DNA from: an uncultured Clostridia bacterium
GTDB taxonomy: Bacteria > Bacillota > Clostridia > Oscillospirales > Ruminococcaceae
Reading direction: 5' to 3'
NCBI GenBank assembly: GCA_947627905.1
Contig: CANQXX010000022.1
Location: forward strand, 1-32,156
Length of the DNA: 32,156 nt
Shown: in pieces, positions 16,986 to 25,682 of the stretch
Numbering within the stretch: position 1 is the first letter of the stretch
How the letters are laid out: each line of letters begins with the position of its first letter
Notes under the pieces: model-generated
Told to the model about the DNA's origin: nothing
Databases searched by the model: none
The model's input: the letters and a program-made list of their open reading frames with translations, nothing else
Program-made: the position numbers and the translations under genes

Positions 16986-18191
16986 TTAAAGTCCAAGGAT
17001 CGCTTTGATCTCGGCGGTGAGCTTTTCAGCTGCCTTGTCATGAGTTGTAATGGACGGATGCCAGTCGGCGGAATAACCGTCCGCAGGATCCTGAACATCG
17101 AATTTCATGGCAGAAATATTGGTATCGCCTGTTTCTTCGGTATAATTATTGACCGCAAGCTGAACATGATCAAACAGTCTGTCTCCCATTATTCCGAGAA
17201 CACAAAGTATCCTTGCGTCCGGATTGTTTGCGCGGATAGTTTTCAGGAACTCTGTATATGCCGTGCTGTATTCTTCCTGCTTGTCAGGATCGTTCTGCGT
17301 GTAGCTGTCGTCGTTAGTTCCAAGATTGAGCACGATAATATCCGGCTGACGTTTTGAAAAATCCCATTCAACATTTGCCGGCGTAAAGCTGCCGTTAGTT
17401 GACCATGAATATCCGAGCTTTGTATAGAACTGCGGCACTGTCTGTGCAGAGACCTTTTTATCTCCGTTAGTGTAGCCGGAAATAATTCCGTAGCCGCTGA
17501 AAGATACCATGCTGTAATCGGCGTTCAGAGCCTGTGCGGTCTTGTAAGCATAGGCTTTTGTAACATCTTCTGTCTTGGTGGAGAAGTGATGATCCTTGTC
17601 CGGATCGTCGATGCCGTAGCCGCAGGTAATTGAATCTCCTATAAATTCTATAAGGATATCCTTATTTTCCGTAGGTTTTATCGGAGTTCCCTTAACGGTG
17701 ATATTTCCTATACCCATTGTTGACATAGGCGATTCGGACAGCTTTACTATTGAAACGGTAACGTCCTCCGCAGTATCGCTTGAAAATACATCATATGTCT
17801 CCTGAAGATTGTCTATCATATCGTCAATTACTCTTTCACCGTTTACATATATTCCCACGCGCACCTGATTATCGGCGTTTGTAGGGCTTAAAGACGTTGA
17901 ATCTCCGGTGATAGAAACGGTACACTTTGTTCCTGTAAAGGAAAATTCCGCGCCGCTTCCGGAAAGCGCACAGTACAGCTTGTCTTCATTGAAGTATGTA
18001 CGTCCAAGCGCCTTTACGTTGTCATAATTTGCCTTATATGCTGTTTCGGTATTCATATCGTAAGTTACCTCCGTTGTTTGTTCTGCCGTATTTTCGCCGC
18101 CGTCTCCGGCATCGTTTTTATTGCAGCCGGCAAATACCGCCGCCGACACAGCAGCAGCGCTTATCAAAGAAACAATTTTTAAAAATTTCAT
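16986..18191 (-). CDS. CE2-type SGNH acetyl esterase lipoprotein
   Basis: Two ATGs stand side by side (18194 and 18191); the second has better spacing from AGGAGG and is used, giving 401 residues. A lipoprotein signal ends VFAGC. Residues about 60-170 form a beta-sandwich like the CE2 N-terminal domain. The SGNH domain follows with IEFIGDSITCGYG (catalytic Ser187), NLGTNDDS and the C-terminal D-W-H-P (Asp376/His378). CE2 enzymes remove acetyl groups from xylan or other glycans at the cell surface. The gene has its own promoter (18215-18243) and terminator, so it is monocistronic. It is a second SGNH lipoprotein in the window but is not closely similar to the one at 9707. Confidence 0.88.
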   Translation of the reverse strand: MKFLKIVSLISAAAVSAAVFAGCNKNDAGDGGENTAEQTTEVTYDMNTETAYKANYDNVKALGRTYFNEDKLYCALSGSGAEFSFTGTKCTVSITGDSTSLSPTNADNQVRVGIYVNGERVIDDMIDNLQETYDVFSSDTAEDVTVSIVKLSESPMSTMGIGNITVKGTPIKPTENKDILIEFIGDSITCGYGIDDPDKDHHFSTKTEDVTKAYAYKTAQALNADYSMVSFSGYGIISGYTNGDKKVSAQTVPQFYTKLGYSWSTNGSFTPANVEWDFSKRQPDIIVLNLGTNDDSYTQNDPDKQEEYSTAYTEFLKTIRANNPDARILCVLGIMGDRLFDHVQLAVNNYTEETGDTNISAMKFDVQDPADGYSADWHPSITTHDKAAEKLTAEIKAILGL

Positions 18192-18214
18192 CATATCCCT
18201 CCTCGGATAGTATC

Positions 18215-18243
18215 ATTTTACCACATTCGTCATTCAAAATCAA
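18215..18243 (-). promoter_or_regulatory. Promoter of the CE2-type esterase gene
   Basis: On the minus strand TTGATT (18243-18238), 17 bases, TAAAAT (18220-18215). The start codon lies about 24 bases after the -10. Confidence 0.65.
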
Positions 18244-18256
18244 TAGCAAAGACAAT

Positions 18257-18280
18257 TGTTTATAAAAATGTTTATAAAAA
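18257..18280. repeat. Tandem 12-bp repeat upstream of the esterase promoter
   Basis: TGTTTATAAAAA occurs twice head to tail (18257-18268 and 18269-18280), 14 bases upstream of the -35 box on the minus strand. It could be an AT-rich UP-like or regulator-binding element; it may also be chance. Confidence 0.4.
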
Positions 18281-18287
18281 ATCCGGC

Positions 18288-18317
18288 AAAAACCTGCGCA
18301 TACATGGTATTGCGCAG
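18288..18317 (-). terminator. Probable terminator of the XRE regulator gene
   Basis: On the minus strand CTGCGCA (18317-18311) and TGCGCAG (18300-18294) form a stem extended by three more pairs past a bulge, followed by GTTTTTGCC. It lies about 110 bases beyond the XRE stop codon; the 18318-18425 stretch between holds nothing else I can identify. Confidence 0.6.
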
Positions 18318-18425
18318 ATCTCCGGACTGTATGTTCAGATCGCATTTATATTTTTTTGTAAGACCGCGTGCTGAATAAGATTTTAAAGATTTAACGCTGA
18401 ACATGACCGCCGCCTGAGGAGACGG

Positions 18426-18980
18426 TTATATTTTGGAAATAAGCCCGGCATAATATCTGCTGAGCTTTTCGGCAATGGAGTTGAGCAGTTTCAGGGAATC
18501 GTTTTTAAGCTGTTCATTGGCATAAAATCCGCGTTCGGACATTTCCGCGGCGCGCTTTGCATATTCCACGGCTTTTACGGCGTCGCTCTCGGCAAGCGTT
18601 TCCGCCAGTTTGTAGAAGCATTTCGCCGAAAGTGCGGTAAATTCATCGGCAAAAGCGCCCCATTCTTCTTCGTTTTCCGCAAGCTCCGCCGCTTCGGCAT
18701 ACCTGCCCTCAAAGAAAAGCATTTTTGCGCGAATGAACCTTTCGCTGCCGGAGACCGTACCGGTATCTTCCGCATCGTCTCCCTGAGGCATAAGCGACGC
18801 TACGGGAATATCAAGAACATTTGCAAGGTATTCCAGCGTTTTTACCGAAGGAGTTGCGCTGCCGCTTTCTATCTGGCTAAGCATATTGCGCGTTATAAAA
18901 TCGCCGACCACTTCGCTCTGGGTCATTTTTTTGGATATACGGGCTTCCTTTATTATTCTTCCTCTCTCAGCAGGCGTCAT
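18426..18980 (-). CDS. XRE-family regulator with C-terminal helical repeat domain
   Basis: This 184-residue protein has an HTH_3/Cro-CI domain at about residues 6-62 (GRIIKEARISKKMTQSEVVG, then N-M-L-S-Q-I-E-S-G-S-A-T-P-S in the recognition region, LANVLDIPVASLM). A helical, TPR-like C-terminal part follows (about 78-184), which probably dimerises or senses a partner. GGGAGGGAT precedes the ATG. A perfect 15-bp palindrome covers its transcription start, and the same palindrome sits at two promoters on the other side of the intergenic region. I infer that this protein binds those sites and represses itself, the membrane peptide at 19152 and the NfeD-like gene at 19338. Confidence 0.9.
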   Translation of the reverse strand: MTPAERGRIIKEARISKKMTQSEVVGDFITRNMLSQIESGSATPSVKTLEYLANVLDIPVASLMPQGDDAEDTGTVSGSERFIRAKMLFFEGRYAEAAELAENEEEWGAFADEFTALSAKCFYKLAETLAESDAVKAVEYAKRAAEMSERGFYANEQLKNDSLKLLNSIAEKLSRYYAGLISKI

Positions 18981-19000
18981 GCTATCCCTCCCAATCTAAA

Positions 19001-19015
19001 GTAAATTCAATTTAC
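19001..19015. promoter_or_regulatory. Operator O1, GTAAATTCAATTTAC
   Basis: A perfect palindrome around a central C, three bases after the -10 box of the XRE promoter, covering the expected transcription start. It is the first of three copies in 306 bases. The binding protein is inferred to be the XRE regulator itself. Confidence 0.8.
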
Positions 19016-19018
19016 TAT

Positions 19019-19047
19019 ATTGTAACACGTTTTTTTGCGGATTGCAA
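19019..19047 (-). promoter_or_regulatory. Promoter P1 of the XRE regulator gene
   Basis: On the minus strand TTGCAA (19047-19042), 17 bases, TACAAT (19024-19019). O1 follows directly. Confidence 0.7.
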
Positions 19048-19078
19048 TAGAAAAAAATAATTTTTTTCAAAAATATCC

Positions 19079-19107
19079 TTGACAAACGGGAAATATCCCG
19101 CTATAAT
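19079..19107 (+). promoter_or_regulatory. Promoter P2 of the 40-residue membrane peptide
   Basis: TTGACA (19079-19084), 17 bases, TATAAT (19102-19107): a full consensus promoter. The spacer holds the palindromic run CGGGAAATATCCCG. O2 begins 7 bases after the -10. Confidence 0.88.
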
Positions 19108-19114
19108 CATATTA

Positions 19115-19129
19115 GTAAATTAAATTTAC
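19115..19129. promoter_or_regulatory. Operator O2, GTAAATTAAATTTAC
   Basis: A perfect palindrome covering the expected start of the P2 transcript. Same sequence as O1 except for the central base. Confidence 0.8.
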
Positions 19130-19151
19130 CTTATAGGAGAGCCGGTAAGAT

Positions 19152-19274
19152 ATGTACATTCCCGATAATTTGTTTGAATTTTTTCTTTGGCTCTGGAGCC
19201 TGCTTTATGTGATAATATCTCCTTTTGGAAATATTTTGTGGATATTTATTGAAAAGTACTTGACAAATTTTTGA
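19152..19274 (+). CDS. 40-residue aromatic-rich membrane miniprotein
   Basis: ATG at 19152 follows AGGAGA (19135-19140) and has its own consensus promoter and operator. The 40 codons give a very hydrophobic peptide rich in Phe, Trp, Leu and Ile: an acidic N-terminus (MYIPDNLFEF), a membrane-spanning stretch (FLWLWSLLYVIISPFG), then an amphipathic end (IFIEKYLTNF). No known family is recognised. The last codons overlap the -35 box of P3, so gene and promoter are interlocked. It could be a small membrane sensor or regulator of the NfeD/flotillin system, or a toxin-like peptide. The independent, operator-controlled promoter and good ribosome site are the main evidence that it is real. Confidence 0.65.
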   Translation: MYIPDNLFEFFLWLWSLLYVIISPFGNILWIFIEKYLTNF

Positions 19275-19288
19275 TGTGGGAGTATAAT
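19260..19288 (+). promoter_or_regulatory. Promoter P3 of the NfeD-like gene
   Basis: TTGACA (19260-19265), 17 bases, TATAAT (19283-19288): a full consensus promoter whose -35 lies inside the end of the miniprotein gene. Confidence 0.88.
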
Positions 19289-19291
19289 AAA

Positions 19292-19306
19292 GTAAATGAA
19301 ATTTAC
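19292..19306. promoter_or_regulatory. Operator O3, GTAAATGAAATTTAC
   Basis: Third copy of the palindrome with one mismatch in the left arm (G for T), three bases after the P3 -10 box, as in O1. Confidence 0.75.
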
Positions 19307-19337
19307 ACGATAATATGAAAATGAAAGGGGTAGTATT

Positions 19338-20036
19338 ATGTCCGAGTGGTGGGGAGCGCTTTCAACTCTGCTTAAAGTGCTTTATCTCATAGCGGTGCCG
19401 TCAACTCTTGTACTGCTTTTGCAGACGTTTTTTTCAATAGCCGGCTTCGGGCATGACGGAGATATAAACATCAGCGACACAAGCGGTCTGGACGGCGGCT
19501 TTGACGTTCCCGACGGCGGTGTTGATCTTGACGTGAACACCGATATTGACGCGAATTTTGACACGGATATGAACACCGATGTTTGCCCTCACGGCGATGT
19601 AGATATGAACGTTCACGTTCACGGCGATCATTCACCGTTAAGGCTCTTTACCGTTCAGGGAATAGTTGCGTTTTTTGCAGTTTCCGGCTGGGTATCAATT
19701 GCGGCAATAAGCAGCGGTATGCCTGCGGTGGGCGGTATCCCACTTGGGATAGTAGCAGGATTTTTTGCAATGTACGGGATCGCAAAGCTCATACAGATAA
19801 GCAAGAAACTTACCGAAAACGGAACTATAGATTTCCGCAACGCCATAGGAGAAAGCGCCACCGTATATATCCCCATACCGCCCAACGGAGAGGGCGAGGG
19901 GAAAGTTACCCTGACCTTGCAGGGACGCTTTATGGAATGTGACGCTGTTTCTTTCGGCAGGGAAACTTTAACGACCGGCACGCAGGTGCGGGTTACCGAC
20001 CTTAACGGCGAAGCTCTTGTTGTGGAACGGGAATAG
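19338..20036 (+). CDS. NfeD-like membrane protein with OB-fold domain and Asp/His-rich loop
   Basis: This 232-residue protein has one membrane segment near the N-terminus (about 10-33), then an unusual loop (about 38-95) rich in Asp with D-x-D-x-N and H-x-H-x-D patterns. Two more membrane segments follow (about 102-148), and a C-terminal beta-rich OB-like domain (about 160-232, GESATVYIPIPPNG...GRFMECDAVSF) like NfeD/YuaF proteins. NfeD proteins partner flotillins; in Bacillus yuaF (nfeD2) sits beside floT. Here the flotillin gene lies 2.2 kb downstream. The Asp/His loop may bind divalent metal outside the membrane (inference). GAAAGGGG precedes the ATG. Expression is expected to be controlled by P3/O3. 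Confidence 0.82.
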   Translation: MSEWWGALSTLLKVLYLIAVPSTLVLLLQTFFSIAGFGHDGDINISDTSGLDGGFDVPDGGVDLDVNTDIDANFDTDMNTDVCPHGDVDMNVHVHGDHSPLRLFTVQGIVAFFAVSGWVSIAAISSGMPAVGGIPLGIVAGFFAMYGIAKLIQISKKLTENGTIDFRNAIGESATVYIPIPPNGEGEGKVTLTLQGRFMECDAVSFGRETLTTGTQVRVTDLNGEALVVERE

Positions 20037-20075
20037 TTTGTTCCGGACGAATACCATATTGTTGGAGGAATTTTT

Positions 20076-20510
20076 ATGATAGATAAAAGCGGAAAATGGT
20101 GGACGGGAGACTGTCCGGACGATATTGATGAATACCTGAGGGAATATTCGGAAGATGAAACTTTAGATATCAAGCCTGTAAAATGCAATAACTGCGGCAG
20201 CGACGCTTTGCTTGTACGGCTTGACCATAATGAAGATGTCATTCAGGTAGTATGCCCCGTATGCAAAACAAAAAAGATACTTCTGGATTGTGAAGAAATA
20301 TGGGACGAAGCCAATCCAAGGGCGTACAGGTGTCCGATATGTAAAAAAAGAACGGCTTATCATATAAAGGTAGGCTTCGCAAGGCGTGAAAACGGCAGCG
20401 CCAAATGGGTTTATATCGGAGAAATGTGTACCGAGTGCAAAACGCTGGGTTCATTTATGGATTGGAAGATAAGCTATGAACCCACCGACGAAATGGAAAA
20501 AAATATCTGA
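20076..20510 (+). CDS. Double zinc-ribbon protein of unknown function
   Basis: This 144-residue soluble protein has four CxxC pairs: CNNC (about 48-51), CPVC (70-73), CPIC (91-94) and CTEC (124-127). They fit two zinc-ribbon folds with an acidic N-terminus. No enzyme motif is seen, and I do not recognise a named family. GGAGG stands 8 bases before the ATG. It is 39 bases after the NfeD-like gene and probably shares its transcript. Its codon use resembles the flanking host genes more than the AT-rich genes that follow. Confidence 0.75.
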   Translation: MIDKSGKWWTGDCPDDIDEYLREYSEDETLDIKPVKCNNCGSDALLVRLDHNEDVIQVVCPVCKTKKILLDCEEIWDEANPRAYRCPICKKRTAYHIKVGFARRENGSAKWVYIGEMCTECKTLGSFMDWKISYEPTDEMEKNI

Positions 20511-20541
20511 TGTGATAAATATTTTAAAGGGGACATCAGAT

Positions 20542-21297
20542 ATGAATACATTAAATGATCTGCTTGAGATCTTTGTCGCTCAAAGTCAAAAAATATTAGG
20601 AGATAATATTGTTGGGATCTATCTTCACGGCTCTGCTGTTATGGGGTGCTATAACGAAAAGAAAAGTGATATTGATTTGTTAGTTGTAGTAAAGGAAGTT
20701 ATCCCGAATGACATAAAACGTCGCTTTATGGATATGATTGCAGAATTGAATGCATATGCACCTCCAAAAGGGATAGAACTAAGTATTGTTAAAAGAGAGG
20801 TATGCGATCCGTTTGTTTATCCGACGCCTTTTGAACTGCACTTTTCCATTGCACATTCAGAATGGTATAAAACCGATCCTTCAGATTATATTGATAAAAT
20901 GAATGGAACGGATAAAGATCTGGCAGCTCACTTTACTATTATTTATCATAGGGGAAAATGTCTTTACGGAAAAGATATAAAAGATGTTTTTGGAGAGGTC
21001 AGCAAAGAAGATTACTTTGACAGTATTTTCAGTGATATTAAAGATGCTGAAACCGAAATAATGAATGATCCTACTTACATTATTCTGAACTTGTGCAGAG
21101 TATTGGCATACAAAAAAGAAGAGCTTATCCTGTCAAAGCAGGAGGGCGGCAAATGGGGAATATGCAATGTTCCCGAAAAGTACAAAAATTTAATAGCGCA
21201 GGCACTGGAAGAATATTCATCTGACAGAATAACAAAATGGGAAGAAAACAATGCCCGTGAATTTGCTGAATATATGATAACACAGATAAGAAATTAA
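20542..21297 (+). CDS. ANT(3'')/ANT(9)-like nucleotidyltransferase (AadA family)
   Basis: The start is the ATG at 20542 with AAAGGGG 10 bases upstream, giving 251 residues, close to AadA size. It shows the polymerase-beta-type nucleotidyltransferase motif G30-S31 ... D43-I-D45 (HGSAVMGCYNEKKSDIDLLV), a likely third acidic residue at Glu79 (GIELSIV), and the C-terminal helical DUF4111-like part with LNLCRVLAYKKEELILSKQEGG and KWG. Relatives adenylylate streptomycin or spectinomycin. Whether this copy gives resistance cannot be told from sequence. It is more AT-rich than the surrounding genes, which suggests transfer. The chorismate mutase and VOC genes that follow are similar in composition. 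Confidence 0.8.
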   Translation: MNTLNDLLEIFVAQSQKILGDNIVGIYLHGSAVMGCYNEKKSDIDLLVVVKEVIPNDIKRRFMDMIAELNAYAPPKGIELSIVKREVCDPFVYPTPFELHFSIAHSEWYKTDPSDYIDKMNGTDKDLAAHFTIIYHRGKCLYGKDIKDVFGEVSKEDYFDSIFSDIKDAETEIMNDPTYIILNLCRVLAYKKEELILSKQEGGKWGICNVPEKYKNLIAQALEEYSSDRITKWEENNAREFAEYMITQIRN

Positions 21298-21300
21298 ATC

Positions 21301-21322
21301 TGACTTTTACGATATAATCGTA
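21301..21322 (+). promoter_or_regulatory. Possible promoter with LytTR-box-like sequence
   Basis: TGACTTTTACGATAT (21301-21315) matches the boxes at 31945-31980 in 14 of 15 bases for the closer one. It overlaps a TATAAT (21313-21318) and an inverted repeat TACGAT-ata-ATCGTA (21308-21322) ahead of the chorismate mutase gene. No good -35 is seen. It may be a regulated promoter or a chance match. Confidence 0.35.
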
Positions 21323-21369
21323 ATGCCTGGTATTTATAACGGCAAATCGGAATATATGGAGGTTATTTT

Positions 21370-21657
21370 ATGATATGTTCAAGTTTAGAAGAAGTCCGTT
21401 CAAATATTGATAGGATTGATAACGAAATTATTAAACTTATTGCTGAAAGGACAGACTATGTTAAACAGGCTTCATCTTTCAAAAAGAACGAAAATGGAGT
21501 AAAAGCACCAAATCGTGTTGAGGCTGTCATTCAAAAAGCAAGGAAAAAGGCTTTAGAATATGGTGCAAATCCAGATATGATTGAAACTCTTTACAGAGAA
21601 ATGATTTCAAGTTTTATAAATTTGGAAATGGACGAGTTTAAGAAAACTCAAGGCTAA
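21370..21657 (+). CDS. Chorismate mutase, AroQ/PchB-like
   Basis: This 95-residue all-helical protein has the AroQ chorismate mutase pattern: SLEEVRSNIDRIDNEIIKLI, ERTDYVKQASSFKK, a PNRVE turn, and a last helix with LYREMISSFINLEM. It would convert chorismate to prephenate in the cytoplasm. The A-x-x-F-K and P-x-R-V-E spacing also resembles the isochorismate-pyruvate lyase PchB, so salicylate-type chemistry cannot be excluded, though no isochorismate synthase is near. It stands alone from aromatic-pathway genes. Low GC and the AadA-like neighbour suggest an acquired block. A GGAGG ribosome site precedes the ATG. Confidence 0.85.
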   Translation: MICSSLEEVRSNIDRIDNEIIKLIAERTDYVKQASSFKKNENGVKAPNRVEAVIQKARKKALEYGANPDMIETLYREMISSFINLEMDEFKKTQG

Positions 21658-21776
21658 ATTCTAATTTGTAGAGTAGTCTCAAAATTTTTATAGATGAAAA
21701 GATACATTTTATGTTTAGGCAGTGTTATGTAAAAATGCCGAATATTGACAAATAGGAACTTGTGGGGGCATAATTA

Positions 21777-22124
21777 ATGAATTGCAATATTTGTTCTCTT
21801 TATATCTGCGTAATGGATATGGATAGAGCTATAAAGTTTTATGAGGATCTCTTTGAACAGCTCGTGACAGAAAGAGATAATATATACAGCGTTTTTGATA
21901 TAAACGGTTTTCGCTTCGGATTGTTTGCGTATCAAGAAGTAAAGGAAACGCATATTTTTGGAAGCAATTGTCTGCCGAGTATCAGTGTAGACAATATTGA
22001 GATCCTTAAATGTAAAATCAAGAATAAAGAAATATGTTTTCCCTTGACTCGAATTGGCAAAAATTGGGTTGCGGAATTTGTGGATTCAGAGGGTAATCAT
22101 ATAGAGATAACTGCGCCTGCATAG
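21777..22124 (+). CDS. VOC-superfamily (glyoxalase/bleomycin-resistance fold) protein
   Basis: The 115-residue protein has the paired beta-alpha-beta-beta-beta modules of the vicinal-oxygen-chelate fold: MNCNICSLYICVMDMDRAIKFYEDLF at the start, FRFGLFAY in the middle, and W-V-A-E-F-V-D-S-E-G-N-H-I-E-I at the end. It could be a small metal enzyme or a drug-binding protein; the metal residues are not certain enough to choose. It lies last in the three-gene AT-rich block, 119 bases after the chorismate mutase gene and just before a heptad repeat tract. The region 21658-21776 shows no other gene. Confidence 0.82.
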   Translation: MNCNICSLYICVMDMDRAIKFYEDLFEQLVTERDNIYSVFDINGFRFGLFAYQEVKETHIFGSNCLPSISVDNIEILKCKIKNKEICFPLTRIGKNWVAEFVDSEGNHIEITAPA

Positions 22125-22163
22125 TATAATAAATTCTGATCTATATTGTCAAACCATTAATAT

Positions 22164-22179
22164 CTCAACTCTCAACTCT
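22164..22179. repeat. CTCAACT heptad tract
   Basis: Two tandem CTCAACT units plus CT, preceded by TAT as in the heptad tails of the repeats at both window ends (TTTATCTCAACTCT). No hairpin part is attached here. It marks the junction between the AT-rich gene block and the flotillin gene. Confidence 0.6.
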
Positions 22180-22187
22180 GTATAAAC

Positions 22188-22215
22188 TTGTCAACAATGT
22201 TGAAAAATTTAAAAT
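22188..22215 (+). promoter_or_regulatory. Doubtful flotillin promoter with TCAACAATGTTGA palindrome
   Basis: TTGTCA (22188-22193), 16 bases, TAAAAT (22210-22215). A perfect 13-bp palindrome lies at 22191-22203 in the spacer. The predicted start would fall on the Shine-Dalgarno (GGGAGG, 22220-22225), which argues against normal use; the palindrome may still be a regulator site. Confidence 0.3.
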
Positions 22216-22233
22216 AAACGGGAGGTCTTTTAT

Positions 22234-23847
22234 ATGCAAAATGTTGAAACCCTTATTGCCGTATGCGTAATTGTCGTAGTGCTTTTTGCGGCAGTTGCGG
22301 CGATCCTGTCGCGGTACAGAAAATGTCCGTCGGACAAGATCATGGTAATTTACGGTAAAGTCGGCACTGACAAGAACGGTCAGGCTCGCAGCGCAAAATG
22401 TATCCACGGCGGCGCGGCGTTCATCGTGCCGATAATCCAATCCTATCAGTACCTTGACCTGACGCCTATTTCCATTAACGTTGACCTGAAAAACGCCCTT
22501 TCAAAGCAGAATATCCGTGTTGACGTTCCGTCAAGATTTACGGTAGGAATTTCCACCGAGCCGGGCATTATGCAGAACGCCGCAGAACGTCTGCTTGGTC
22601 TGAAAATGATGGAAATTCAGGAGCTTGCAAAGGATATCATCTTCGGACAGCTCCGTCTTGTTATCGCAACAATGGAGATCGAGGAGATCAACACAGACCG
22701 TGATAAATTCCTCGTTGCAGTTTCAAACAACGTTGAGATCGAACTTAAAAAGATCGGTCTGCGGCTCATAAACGTAAACGTTACCGATATCAACGACGAA
22801 TCCGGCTACATTGACGCTCTCGGTAAAGAAGCCGCCGCAAAGGCTATCAACGACGCCAAAAAGAGCGTTGCCGAAAAGGACAGAGACGGTGCTATCGGTG
22901 AAGCGAATGCCAAGAAGGATCAGCGTATTCAGGTTGCTGCTGCAAACGCTTCCGCTATCGAGGGTGAAAACGATGCAAAGATAGCAGTTGCTCAGTCCGA
23001 AGCTATCCGCCGCCAGAAAGAGGCCGAAGCCGACGCTAAAGCTACAAACGACGCAAAAGTTGCCGTTGCTGAGACGAGCCGCGACGGTGAGATCGGTCAG
23101 GCAAACGCTATGAAGGACCAGCGTATACAGGTGGCTGCCGCAAACGCCGCTGCTATCGAGGGTGAAAACAACGCCAAGATCGCAGTTGCCCAGTCGGAAG
23201 CAAAGCGCCGCGAAAAAGAAGCCGAAGCCCTCAAAACGGCTATTACCGCAGAAGCAGTTCAGGCTGCAAAGGCAAAGGAAGAAGCCTACATTGCTCAGCA
23301 GGAAGCCGAAAATAAACGTGCCGAGCTGGAAATGGCAACTCAGAAAGCCGATATCATCGTAAAGGCTCAGATAGAAAAGGAAAAAGCCGAGATCGCTGCA
23401 GAAGCCGAAGCGGAAGTCCTCCGCAGAAAAGCACGAGGCGAAGCGGACGCTATCTATGCGAAAATGGCTGCCGAAGCAAAGGGTGCAATGGAAATTCTCC
23501 AGAAGCAGGCAGAAGGTATGCGCGCGCTTGTTGACGCTGCCGGAGACGCGGATTCCGCAGTAAAAATGGTAATTGCCGACAAGCTGGAGGACCTGATGAG
23601 GATTCAGGTAGACGCTATCAAGAATATCAAGATAGACAAGATAACCGTCTGGGACGGCGGCAAAAATCCCGACGGGAACACTGCCACTGCGGATTTTATC
23701 GCAGGAATGATGAAGTCCGTTCCGCCGCTCAATGAAGTTTTCAAGCAGGCAGGAATGGAGCTCCCCGCGCTTCTGGGAAAAGAGCTTGAAAATCCGGCTG
23801 ACGAAGCAGAAAACGCTGCTGCCGAAGAGACTGAAGCGGATATCTGA
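22234..23847 (+). CDS. Flotillin-like SPFH-domain membrane protein
   Basis: This 537-residue protein has an N-terminal membrane segment (residues 6-26), an SPFH/band-7 domain (about 30-200, YRKCPSDKIMVIYGKVG ... LRLINVNVTDIND), and a long Ala/Glu-rich coiled coil (about 200-425) with the EA repeats typical of flotillins. A C-terminal part (about 430-537) ends in an acidic tail. Flotillins scaffold membrane microdomains and pair with NfeD proteins. The coiled coil contains a near-perfect tandem duplication of 66 residues (205-270 and 271-336). GGGAGG stands 8 bases before the ATG. It is separated from the NfeD-like gene by the zinc-ribbon gene and a three-gene AT-rich block. Confidence 0.93.
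   Translation: MQNVETLIAVCVIVVVLFAAVAAILSRYRKCPSDKIMVIYGKVGTDKNGQARSAKCIHGGAAFIVPIIQSYQYLDLTPISINVDLKNALSKQNIRVDVPSRFTVGISTEPGIMQNAAERLLGLKMMEIQELAKDIIFGQLRLVIATMEIEEINTDRDKFLVAVSNNVEIELKKIGLRLINVNVTDINDESGYIDALGKEAAAKAINDAKKSVAEKDRDGAIGEANAKKDQRIQVAAANASAIEGENDAKIAVAQSEAIRRQKEAEADAKATNDAKVAVAETSRDGEIGQANAMKDQRIQVAAANAAAIEGENNAKIAVAQSEAKRREKEAEALKTAITAEAVQAAKAKEEAYIAQQEAENKRAELEMATQKADIIVKAQIEKEKAEIAAEAEAEVLRRKARGEADAIYAKMAAEAKGAMEILQKQAEGMRALVDAAGDADSAVKMVIADKLEDLMRIQVDAIKNIKIDKITVWDGGKNPDGNTATADFIAGMMKSVPPLNEVFKQAGMELPALLGKELENPADEAENAAAEETEADI
22846..23241 (+). repeat. Tandem 198-bp duplication within the flotillin coiled coil
   Basis: Unit 1 (22846-23043) and unit 2 (23044-23241) encode 66 residues each. 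Both contain NDAK, an R-D-G-x-I-G-x-A-N-A block, KDQRIQVAAANA, AIEGEN and AKIAVAQSEA at the same offset. Many differences are silent, so the duplication is old or under selection at protein level. Confidence 0.85.
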
Positions 23848-23881
23848 AAAACTCCCGCAGGATCAATATAAAAACTTAAAG

Positions 23882-23920
23882 GACCGTTCGTACAGAAATG
23901 TGTGAACGGTTCTATTCTTT
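23882..23920 (+). terminator. Terminator after flotillin
   Basis: ACCGTTCGTACA (23883-23894) and TGTGTGAACGGT (23899-23910) form a 12-bp stem with G-U pairs and a GAAA tetraloop, followed by TCTATTCTTTT. Confidence 0.75.
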
Positions 23921-23962
23921 TCCCGGGAAGAATATATATATCCTAAAAAGGAGGATAAAATC

Positions 23963-24244
23963 ATGAACGATGTAAACAAGCCTATGCCCGTACACAATAT
24001 TATCCTTGAAGGGAGAAAAAAACTGTCGGTGTCGGGCGTTACGGACGTTGACAGATTTGACGAAAATACGGTGCTTCTTTATACCAGCATGGGAGAAATG
24101 ACTATCAAAGGCACTGACCTGCACGTCAATGGACTTTCCGTTGAAAGCGGAGAAATGAGCGTTGAGGGAGAAATAAAAAGCATACTGTACGGCGATCCGG
24201 ACAGGAAAGCCCCTCTTTCACTGTTTGATAAAATTTTTCACTGA
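23963..24244 (+). CDS. yabP: Sporulation protein YabP
   Basis: This 93-residue protein matches YabP: HNIILEGRKKLSVSGVTDVD, F-D-E-x-T-V-L-L-Y-T, L-H-V-N-G-L-S-V-E-S-G-E. YabP is made in the mother cell under sigma-E; in Bacillus it is linked with YabQ in spore cortex formation. The next gene is yabQ, 12 bases later, then divIC and yabR, the Bacillus order. AAGGAGG precedes the ATG. Confidence 0.95.
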   Translation: MNDVNKPMPVHNIILEGRKKLSVSGVTDVDRFDENTVLLYTSMGEMTIKGTDLHVNGLSVESGEMSVEGEIKSILYGDPDRKAPLSLFDKIFH

Positions 24245-24256
24245 CGAGGTGACGAT

Positions 24257-24808
24257 TTGCATTTAGATACATTTTTTTCAGTTTCTCAGCATACTGCAAT
24301 GTTCCTGCTTTCCGTCGTCCTCGGAGCGGCTCTCGGAGTGGTATATGACTGCTTCCGCGCGTTAAGGGTGATATTTCCGCCGGCAGCCAAAAAAAATGCG
24401 GTCATAGCGGAGGATATCATCTTCTGGCTCATATACGGCTTCTGTATATTCTGTTATGCGGCGTCATTTGCACGCGGACAGGTAAGATTTTTTATGTTTT
24501 TCGGGTCGCTTATTGGATTTGTCCTTTACCTTGTCACCGTGGGCAGCATAGTTATAGGCATAATAAGAAGCGTTTTCGGAGCATTTTACAAAATATTACA
24601 TCAAGTATATTCGCGCTTGATTGAACCTTTTGTAAAAATATTTAAAACTATTTGTCAAAAAATTGTGCCGCTTTTTGTGCGAAATCATAAAAATGCAGAA
24701 ATTCCCGAAAGAAGTGTTAAAAACCACTTGAAAAATGCCGTCTCTATGGTGTATAATAAGTACATTAGTGTAGAGAAAAACATTCGGGGAAAGGAAACAG
24801 GAAGGTGA
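24257..24808 (+). CDS. yabQ: Spore cortex biosynthesis protein YabQ
   Basis: The start is TTG at 24257, 5 bases after GAGGTGA. The 183-residue protein has three to four membrane segments in the first 110 residues, with the YabQ landmarks G-V-V-Y-D-C-F-R-A-L-R, EDIIFWLIYGF and ARGQVRFFMFFG. YabQ lies in the forespore membrane and is needed for cortex assembly. The C-terminal 70 residues are basic and cytoplasmic. The stop is 4 bases before the divIC ATG. Confidence 0.92.
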   Translation: MHLDTFFSVSQHTAMFLLSVVLGAALGVVYDCFRALRVIFPPAAKKNAVIAEDIIFWLIYGFCIFCYAASFARGQVRFFMFFGSLIGFVLYLVTVGSIVIGIIRSVFGAFYKILHQVYSRLIEPFVKIFKTICQKIVPLFVRNHKNAEIPERSVKNHLKNAVSMVYNKYISVEKNIRGKETGR

Positions 24809-24812
24809 AGGC

Positions 24813-25163
24813 ATGAACGAAGCGGAAGTGCTCAATGCCCAAAAAAATAAAAAGAACCTCAAGCACCTGAAAAAAAAGAAAAACAGTCACCCGCTCCTCG
24901 GCGCTCTGGGATTTATAGCAGGCTCTGCTTTTGTTCTGTACTGCTGCGCCTCAATAGTTTTGACCAAGGCGGAGATCGCCGAGAAAAAACAGGAACTTGC
25001 TGTACTGTCCGAAAAAGCCGAACAGCTTGAAGAGGAAAACGACGAGTACCAGAGCATTCTTTCCGAAGAGGACGAAAGAGAATTTATGGAGCGCTATGCA
25101 ATAGAGGTGCTCGGATACGCTTATCCGAACGAAAGACGTTTCTACGATACTATGGGAAATTAA
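24813..25163 (+). CDS. divIC: Cell-division septum protein DivIC (FtsB family)
   Basis: This 116-residue bitopic protein has a very basic cytoplasmic N-terminus (about 1-30, KNLKHLKKKKNSH), one membrane segment (about 32-53) and an external coiled coil (about 55-90, leucine-spaced EKKQELAVLSEKAEQLEEEN). The end, M-E-R-Y-A-I-E-V-L-G-Y-A-Y-P-N-E-R-R-F, is the FtsB/DivIC signature. It would join FtsL and DivIB at the division and sporulation septum. AGGAAGG lies before the ATG. Confidence 0.93.
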   Translation: MNEAEVLNAQKNKKNLKHLKKKKNSHPLLGALGFIAGSAFVLYCCASIVLTKAEIAEKKQELAVLSEKAEQLEEENDEYQSILSEEDEREFMERYAIEVLGYAYPNERRFYDTMGN

Positions 25164-25238
25164 AAAAGGAACATTCCCCTTTAAAGGAATGCCCCGAAAG
25201 GGATATATAAAATCAAACGAGAGGATCAAAAATTTTTT

Positions 25239-25682
25239 ATGCAGCTTGAAACTGGAAAGATCTACGAAGGCAAAGTGACCGGAATAACCAAATTCGGAGC
25301 ATTCGTGGAAATAGAGCCGGGTACTACCGGAATGGTACATATCAGCGAGGTCGCCAACACCTATGTAAACGAGATCAAGGATCATCTTACCGAGGGACAA
25401 ACGGTAAAGGTAAAAGTGCTTTCGGTAAGCGGAGAGGGCAAGATATCACTGTCTATCAAAAAAGCCATGGACAGTTCCGCTCCGAAAAAGGACAGCAGAC
25501 ACAGCGGAAACGGCGGCAGACGTCCGGACGCTTCCAGACCCGCTCAGGAGAAAGCCCCCCAGTCTCCCGAAGCTGCTTTTGAGGATATGCTCAACAAGTT
25601 CAAGCAAAGCTCGGACGAGCGCATGGGCGATCTTAAAAAAGTCCTTGACGTCAAGCGCAGAAATCCTTCAAGAAGAAAGTAA
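25239..25682 (+). CDS. yabR: S1-domain RNA-binding protein YabR
   Basis: This 147-residue protein has an S1 RNA-binding domain in residues 1-72 (GKIYEGKVTGITKFGAFVEI, GMVHISEV, GEGKISLSIKKA) and a basic, disordered tail. The order divIC-yabR agrees with Bacillus; the family also resembles general stress protein 13. It probably binds ribosomes or mRNA; the exact role is unknown. The spacing from the GAGAGGA site to the ATG is long (about 13 bases). Confidence 0.92.
   Translation: MQLETGKIYEGKVTGITKFGAFVEIEPGTTGMVHISEVANTYVNEIKDHLTEGQTVKVKVLSVSGEGKISLSIKKAMDSSAPKKDSRHSGNGGRRPDASRPAQEKAPQSPEAAFEDMLNKFKQSSDERMGDLKKVLDVKRRNPSRRK

Follow-up and report, generated by a model that had tools for sequence, protein, structure and literature searches.

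The contig CANQXX010000022.1 (assembly GCA_947627905.1) of an uncultured Clostridia bacterium, analysed over positions 1 to 32,156 and called the window below, holds a gene for an XRE-family regulator and three copies of one palindrome, each at a separate promoter: that of the regulator gene itself, that of a gene for a 40-residue membrane miniprotein, and that of an NfeD-like gene with a flotillin (SPFH) gene downstream (Table 1). We conclude that the XRE protein is most probably an autoregulated one-component repressor of these membrane-platform (SPFH/NfeD) genes. The evidence was obtained by comparison with related genomes and covers the palindrome motif, its positions, the promoters beside it, its co-occurrence with the regulator, the linked gene content and the coding nature of the miniprotein. 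Regulator class and platform are each known. A search of open-access papers returned no description of their pairing, of the operator or of the peptide, nor of an XRE repressor of NfeD/flotillin genes.

Comparison of 158 operators upstream of XRE genes at related loci gave the consensus GTAAATnnnATTTAC, in which the outer six bases on each side are nearly invariant and the three central bases are free. An earlier sequence-only reading of the window had placed palindromes at 19001, 19115 and 19292, and all three were found there. It had scored the third copy as mismatched; the differing base lies in the free centre, and since the real motif is GTAAATnnnATTTAC, this copy fits it perfectly. A search of the window that allowed up to 2 mismatches returned 3 matches against 0.31 expected, and 0 of 100 shuffles gave 3. 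The same reading had noticed no other copy in the window, which held for the window and for the whole genome: a scan of 2,061,269 bases (74 contigs, 96% complete) found no further copy beyond the three window sites, either with the earlier pattern at up to 1 mismatch or with exact GTAAATnnnATTTAC.

Loci with a related XRE gene were collected by a genome scan with the XRE alignment (FITRNMLS was one of two patterns), and the best 80 of 245 relatives were named. These are mostly Oscillospiraceae (among them Ruminococcus albus, L144 and L145, and R. bicirculans, L141), and Sinanaerobacter chloroacetimidivorans (Anaerovoracaceae, L149) is also included. The motif was present with at most 1 mismatch within 1.5 kb upstream of the XRE gene in 79 of the 80 loci, with an exact copy in 68; L119, the locus with no operator, has 224 bases of upstream sequence. 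At least two operators were found in 62/80 loci and at least three in 17/80. Across the 1.04 Mb around the 80 loci, 158 operators lay upstream of XRE genes and 5 elsewhere, and the reversed pattern occurred 3 times. An NfeD gene was found upstream in 68/80 loci (L162 and L177, with no NfeD gene, have 110 and 271 bases of upstream sequence), and a flotillin gene lay beyond it, adjacent or separated by other genes, in 61 of these 68; in the remaining 7 the contig ends within 2.9 kb. The NfeD-flotillin neighbourhood proposed from the window alone thus recurs, as does the palindrome upstream of orthologous genes, whose absence there the earlier reading had named as a refutation. The layout with the miniprotein belongs to one lineage. 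Nine loci (L118, L122, L126, L129, L133, L137, L139, L143 and L152) hold the XRE gene with one operator and no NfeD gene. In L126, L133 and L137, the three of these loci that were read, there follow membrane-protein genes and genes that by eye resemble a type IV pilus operon, including what we take to be PilC and PilM; the 170-residue membrane protein beside the XRE gene in L133 had no Pfam match at E 0.01. L151, titled Bacteroides sp., sits within the Oscillospiraceae rows of the XRE tree and is perhaps a misnamed metagenome-assembled genome (MAG) or a transfer.

To relate the motif to the regulator, a sample of 197 genomes of the same family was divided into 19 with an XRE match at E 1e-15 (XRE+) and 178 without (XRE-). 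The motif (at most 1 mismatch, within 1.5 kb) stood at 18 of the 19 XRE loci, with varying centres. NfeD genes of the window's type were detected at E 1e-5 in 27 genomes, 16 XRE+ and 11 XRE-, and the motif lay beside NfeD in 16/16 of the former (14 exact) and 0/11 of the latter (Fisher's exact test, p 7.7e-8, relatedness not corrected; the 11 XRE- NfeD genes diverge further in sequence than most of those in XRE+ genomes). The set of motifs before the XRE, miniprotein and NfeD genes that was first noticed in the window is conserved, and its occurrence follows that of the XRE gene. G122 has its NfeD gene on a different contig from the XRE gene, and the motif is kept there with one mismatch, as expected for a trans-acting protein. 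Genome-wide, exact sites numbered 55 in the 19 XRE+ genomes (11 for the reversed-pattern control) and 51 in the 178 XRE- genomes (control 40).

The three window operators begin 3, 7 and 3 bases past the -10 boxes of the XRE (minus strand), miniprotein and NfeD promoters, respectively, in agreement with the 3 to 7 bases first given. The description of all three promoters as near-consensus was right for those of the miniprotein and NfeD genes (12/12 each) and not for the minus-strand XRE promoter (9/12). In the 68 loci with NfeD, where the last operator was taken as the NfeD operator, a sigma-A-type promoter of at least 11/12, with its -10 box ending at most 12 bases before the operator, preceded 66/68; the gap was 3 bases in 17 loci, 4 in 36, 7 in 12, 8 in 1 and 10 in 1. 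At control positions shifted by 45-105 bases, 15/332 reached 9/12 and 0/332 reached 10/12. Middle operators had a promoter of at least 11/12 in 15/17 cases, and XRE promoters were weaker in relatives as well (at least 9/12 in 33/61, at least 11/12 in 4/61). Because the operators sit directly past the -10 boxes of strong promoters, we infer repression: a bound protein would stop polymerase where transcription begins, the target promoters being strong and that of the self-controlled regulator gene weak.

The XRE protein matched Pfam HTH_3 at E 6.7e-10 (39.3 bits against a cut-off of 23), which places it in the XRE/HTH_3 family. Its structure model (predicted local distance difference test, pLDDT, 85.2) shows a helix-turn-helix (HTH) domain and a tail of about 105 residues whose five helices resemble two TPR pairs and a cap. 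Among solved structures PlcR was the nearest relative in sequence (profile search, E 1.3e-10 over residues 1-129), and the top Foldseek matches were PlcR (3.1e-4), ComR and Rgg, with low whole-chain TM-scores. The modelled order of an HTH followed by a TPR-type helical domain is that of RRNPP regulators; no pro-peptide gene was conserved with the XRE gene, the small open reading frame (ORF) being confined to one clade of the 80 loci. The alignment contains 62 of the 80 rows, window included (the L116 gene runs to the edge of its contig without a stop codon), and the invariance of FITRNMLS in these 62 rows is partly by construction because the genome scan used it as a pattern; it is also invariant across 19 homologues found without that pattern. 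The tail residues D112, E113 and G151 do not vary among either the 19 or the 62 homologues and may, as a guess, mark a ligand or dimer site. The window protein shares 98% identity with its counterpart in L101 (MAG of an uncultured Clostridia bacterium, isolate Lapin-017 bin19).

Assignment of the NfeD-like protein draws on its relatives and on structure, the match of the window protein alone being weak (no match at E 0.001; PF01957 at E 0.007, below cut-off). PF01957 matched 34/39 NfeD relatives at E up to 1 (best 1.2e-5) in an alignment of 39 rows, of which L179 is visibly out of frame. The model (pLDDT 70.6, residues 39-98 disordered) has three long helices and five strands, so that membrane helices with a C-terminal OB-like beta domain are predicted; its best solved Foldseek match was YuaF (2k14, E 1.2e-5), and QmcA-YbbJ (8z5g) was also returned. 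The flotillin has an SPFH/Band_7 domain and lies beyond NfeD, as in 61 named loci, in all of which the two starts are less than 3.5 kb apart, with intervening genes in some. Its score against the NCBI FloT model (E 4.1e-43, 148 bits) falls short of the equivalog cut-off of 700. Flotillin stretches were 58-95% identical in 13/18 relatives where tblastn placed flotillin beside XRE. Four genes part NfeD from flotillin in the window; L101 is similar (2.2 kb between starts), and most relatives have a shorter interval. One of the four encodes a 144-residue protein with CxxC pairs, which we read as a putative zinc ribbon. No plus-strand terminator-like site was found in the window between operator 3 and the flotillin end, so readthrough from the NfeD promoter into flotillin is possible. 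Other genes stand between operator and NfeD in some relatives: a gene of 95-96 residues after operator 3 in L107, L110, L112, L113 and L114 (with a GRAM match below cut-off, E 0.003, in L112), and a lipoprotein-like gene of about 200 residues, first after the operator, in L140, L154 and L158 (the L140 copy gave no convincing Pfam match).

The miniprotein had no match in Pfam or NCBIfam at E 0.001. The clade that carries it consists of the window, L101-L114, L116 and L117; a similar ORF of 38-48 residues follows operator 2 in 15 of the 16 named loci (L101-L108, L110-L114, L116 and L117; L109 has none, and the ORFs of L102 and L114 were found by a looser look). On the XRE tree, 13 carriers and the ORF-less L109 form one branch (support 97/91); the group statistics compare against five T4P rows alone, and the drawn branch was used instead. 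Across 14 sequences, a hydrophobic span containing a fixed proline leads to an IF motif, after which most residues are basic. The ratio of nonsynonymous to synonymous change (pN/pS) was 0.12-0.64 in the nearest set of seven, calculated with the last codons that overlap the -35 box excluded and run without a neutral control, so that in the nearest lineage the miniprotein is very likely a real coding gene. Three other small sets gave 0.17 (one pair), 0.35-0.99 (five) and one pair too close for a value, and the ORF is probably coding in the remaining carriers too. In 14/15 relatives the last codons of the ORF and the -35 box of the NfeD promoter overlap, and the conserved LTN ending arises because the TTGACA box encodes LTN; in L110 the box lies elsewhere and the protein ends differently, and the ORFs of L112, L114 and L116 use a different frame across the box. 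By this comparison the three-operator layout with the miniprotein is an elaboration of one lineage, the commoner form having two operators (XRE and NfeD). We suggest that the miniprotein may be a small protein that works with the NfeD/flotillin platform. The idea that it duplicates the first membrane helix of NfeD was rejected (profile comparison probability 0.6%).

For the wider regulon, a second set of 26 XRE+ genomes was scanned and held 81 exact sites (control 13); R. albus is in both XRE+ sets (G158 and G198 look like one genome). In the two sets 26 and 32 exact sites were off-locus, while the reversed pattern occurred 11 and 13 times in those genomes, so that off-locus sites are enriched. 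We read 49 off-locus stretches, which cover part of the counted sites (L324 was excluded as an XRE locus). The motif lay within about 290 bases before an ABC exporter in 16/49, before a second NfeD gene paired with a paraslipin-type SPFH gene in 6/49, before another SPFH gene in 3/49, before surface-protein genes in 3/49, and before an HlyD-like gene and a CAAX-protease family gene in 1/49 each. Pfam searches on off-locus representatives returned ABC_tran, ABC2_membrane_3, two Band_7, NfeD and Rce1-like matches. The 12 stretches with a promoter of at least 11/12 (3 SPFH, 3 surface-protein, 1 CAAX-protease, 3 exporter, L205 and L220) are the firmest unlinked members, and the others are softer. 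A second SPFH gene carried an exact motif in 6/13 XRE+ loci (four genera) and 0/30 XRE- loci (p 2.8e-4), and with at most 1 mismatch in 1/30 XRE- loci (L252). This control used 40 XRE- genomes hand-picked after the counts had been seen, of which 33 matched and 30 loci were examined; the 40 genomes contained 6 exact sites (control 5), a lower rate than in all 178, and the six sites adjoin none of the ten query proteins by which off-locus neighbours were classed. In the window's own genome the second of two Band_7 genes (contig C13) had no motif at up to 2 mismatches over 3.9 kb. On these searches the own-genome regulon would consist of the three window promoters alone, while relatives have the motif before unlinked SPFH, NfeD and exporter genes as well. 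This content supports an envelope role, by the genes gathered rather than by any signal. Among individual sites, G156 and G063, which have the NfeD-less type of XRE locus, also carry the motif before an unlinked NfeD-paraslipin pair. In L202 (2731-2745) and L203 (2577-2591), of one genus, a second exact operator lies past the paraslipin gene at its 3' side, and no promoter scoring 8/12 or more adjoins it. L301, L305 and L308 have single or paired operators with 11/12 promoters before secreted proteins in which Fn3-like repeats were seen by eye. The operator at L205:2273-2287 lies beside an 11/12 minus-strand promoter with no 60-residue ORF right after it, and perhaps serves another short gene.

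Several observations weigh against a repressor dedicated to platform genes. Most exact sites in XRE+ genomes are at the XRE locus itself (29/55 and 49/81), and some 40% of the off-locus sites may be due to chance, because the controls number 0.4 times the off-locus sites. None of the ten query proteins is fronted in 19/49 off-locus stretches; the ten were picked from these same stretches, several of which come from one genus and are nearly identical. A promoter of at least 11/12 stands beside just 12/49 off-locus sites, including 3/16 exporters and 0/6 NfeD-paraslipin pairs, the latter having a 9/12 promoter in 4/6 and none scored in 2/6. The second SPFH gene lacks the motif in 3/3 genomes of the window's genus, and 9/80 named loci hold the XRE gene and motif without NfeD. 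The window flotillin lies 2.2 kb from NfeD and has a candidate promoter of 10/12 at 22188-22215; it may thus have a separate promoter of its own. The placement of the operators, finally, favours repression without proving it.

PlcR, the nearest solved relative of the XRE protein by profile and the top Foldseek match ahead of ComR and Rgg, is an activator, which also counts against a repressor and points to an activator or dual-acting, PlcR-like protein that binds the palindrome and recruits polymerase under stress. We consider this quite unlikely: the NfeD operators lie 3-10 bases past the -10 boxes of 11-12/12 promoters (66/68), where a bound protein blocks polymerase, and promoters that already score 11-12/12 need no activator. 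The same HTH and TPR-like fold, with an ORF of about 40 residues beside the regulator and under the same operator, would also fit an RRNPP-like pheromone system in which the miniprotein is a pro-peptide whose processed tail binds the TPR-like domain. Little credence is given to this reading, since the ORF occurs in one clade while the regulator and operators span Oscillospiraceae and Anaerovoracaceae, and the XRE tail holds about two TPR pairs, fewer than RRNPP receptors, which form a large peptide groove of several TPRs. A conserved C-terminal pheromone was rejected as the main reading of the miniprotein, because its LTN ending is supplied by the -35 box of the promoter that follows.

The palindrome might instead belong to another DNA-binding protein, with the XRE gene a mere neighbour or target. 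Against this, the motif follows the XRE gene from genome to genome, both beside NfeD (all 16 XRE+ and none of 11 XRE- genomes) and in exact sites overall (55 in 19 XRE+ genomes, 51 in 178 without), and it stands before the XRE gene itself; another binder is in our view very unlikely. The palindromes lie at transcript starts and might also be RNA hairpins, or AT-rich repeats due to chance, that no protein recognises; the fixed 6+6 frame with a free centre in 158 copies, the narrow distance from the -10 box, the absence of the motif beside NfeD in XRE- genomes and the short, AT-rich stem make this extremely unlikely.

Under the repressor model that we favour, an HTH dimer of the XRE protein would bind GTAAATnnnATTTAC over the transcription start, just past the -10 box. 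RNA polymerase would thereby be kept from three promoters, the weak one of the XRE gene and the strong miniprotein and NfeD ones; flotillin would be transcribed either by readthrough or from a separate promoter. On a signal received by the TPR-like tail, the protein would release the DNA and the strong promoters would fire; NfeD, flotillin and the membrane peptide would accumulate, and XRE protein, also made, would reset the switch. In some relatives the protein probably has further targets away from its locus: NfeD-paraslipin operons, another SPFH gene and ABC exporters. The model thus proposes that the XRE protein binds and represses, that an inducer releases it, that the regulon has an envelope-stress role and that most of the unlinked genes are members, and the regulon would fill the role of sigma-W for flotillins in Bacillus. 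A broader form of the model, in which the XRE protein replaces sigma-W as the SPFH/NfeD master switch across broad Clostridia, its tail senses a membrane or cytoplasmic ligand and this lineage's 40-residue peptide returns the membrane state, seems unlikely to us.

In B. subtilis, sigma-W controls floT (yuaFGI), floA and pspA-ydjGHI, one regulator gathering NfeD-flotillin and other SPFH genes (passages of PMC8581546 and PMC2636767), as the XRE protein would here by a different mechanism. The regulator there is an extracytoplasmic function (ECF) sigma factor that activates, whereas here sigma-A-type promoters lie under a palindromic operator beside an XRE gene; ECF-type promoters were not found at the NfeD genes, where the TTGACA-TATAAT type scored at least 11/12 in 66/68. 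The passages of PMC2636767 drawn on treat operon structure and sigma-W, and its main text contains neither of the terms helix-turn-helix and transcription factor. The YuaF-FloT and QmcA-YbbJ operons likewise place NfeD and SPFH families side by side. The XRE-type HTH is shared with PlcR, ComR and Rgg (RRNPP) and with SinR, and the helical TPR-like tail with PlcR, ComR and Rgg; the XRE protein differs from these in its shorter tail, in having no pheromone gene conserved with it and in an operator placed as for repression. LiaRS, PspF and ClgR (the last with a Cro-type HTH) control Psp/Lia envelope-stress genes and offer a parallel as dedicated transcriptional control of membrane maintenance, but with other target sets and signals; PMC11237479, passages of which supply this, mentions YuaF-flotillin operons, and its main text contains neither of the words XRE and NfeD.

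Control of the flotillin-NfeD platform is otherwise described, in the passages drawn on, for Bacillus under sigma-W. If the repressor model is true, a dedicated repressor would provide a genetic handle in rumen and gut Clostridia, since the loss of a single small gene should turn the platform genes on; the regulon content would hint at which exporters and SPFH proteins work with platforms, and the conserved 40-residue membrane peptide in the circuit would be a testable small partner.

Table 1. Features of the window around the XRE regulator gene
Feature	Coordinates	Strand	Basis
XRE-family regulator, 184 residues: HTH (about 1-65) and five-helix TPR-like tail (78-183)	18426..18980	-	Pfam, structure model, profile search
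Operator 1 (XRE gene), GTAAATTCAATTTAC	19001..19015	.	Motif search in window and genome; operator comparison across relatives
XRE gene promoter, TTGCAA-17-TACAAT with TG, 9/12	19019..19047	-	Promoter search; relatives
Miniprotein promoter, TTGACA-17-TATAAT, 12/12	19079..19107	+	Promoter search
Operator 2 (miniprotein), GTAAATTAAATTTAC	19115..19129	.	Motif search in window and genome
Membrane miniprotein, 40 residues, one hydrophobic span	19152..19274	+	ORF in relatives; pN/pS
NfeD gene promoter, TTGACA-17-TATAAT, 12/12	19260..19288	+	-35 box within last miniprotein codons; same overlap in relatives
Operator 3 (NfeD), GTAAATGAAATTTAC, exact 6-3-6 palindrome	19292..19306	.	Motif search in window and genome; operator comparison across relatives
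NfeD-like protein, 232 residues: three membrane helices, C-terminal beta domain	19338..20036	+	Pfam in relatives, model, Foldseek
144-residue protein with CxxC pairs, between NfeD and flotillin	20076..20510	+	No Pfam match
AadA-like nucleotidyltransferase	20542..21297	+	AadA_C E 7.7e-31; below NCBIfam cut-offs of named ANT families
Chorismate mutase type II	21370..21657	+	CM_2 E 4e-22
Glyoxalase-like protein	21777..22124	+	PF00903 E 3.6e-4
Flotillin (SPFH), 537 residues	22234..23847	+	Band_7 E 2.3e-25
Intrinsic terminator-like hairpin after flotillin	23880..23913	+	Sole plus-strand one in 18000-24500

Beyond the flotillin gene, at 23963-25682 of the window, follow genes that we take to be YabP/YabQ-, DivIC- and S1-domain-like; the second NfeD-SPFH pair is flanked by genes that are presumably YabQ-, DivIC- and S1-like in L202, and DivIC- and S1-like in L203. 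On the other side, beyond the XRE gene, a minus-strand gene at 16986-18194 encodes a 402-residue lipoprotein that by eye has the look of a GDSL-like esterase.

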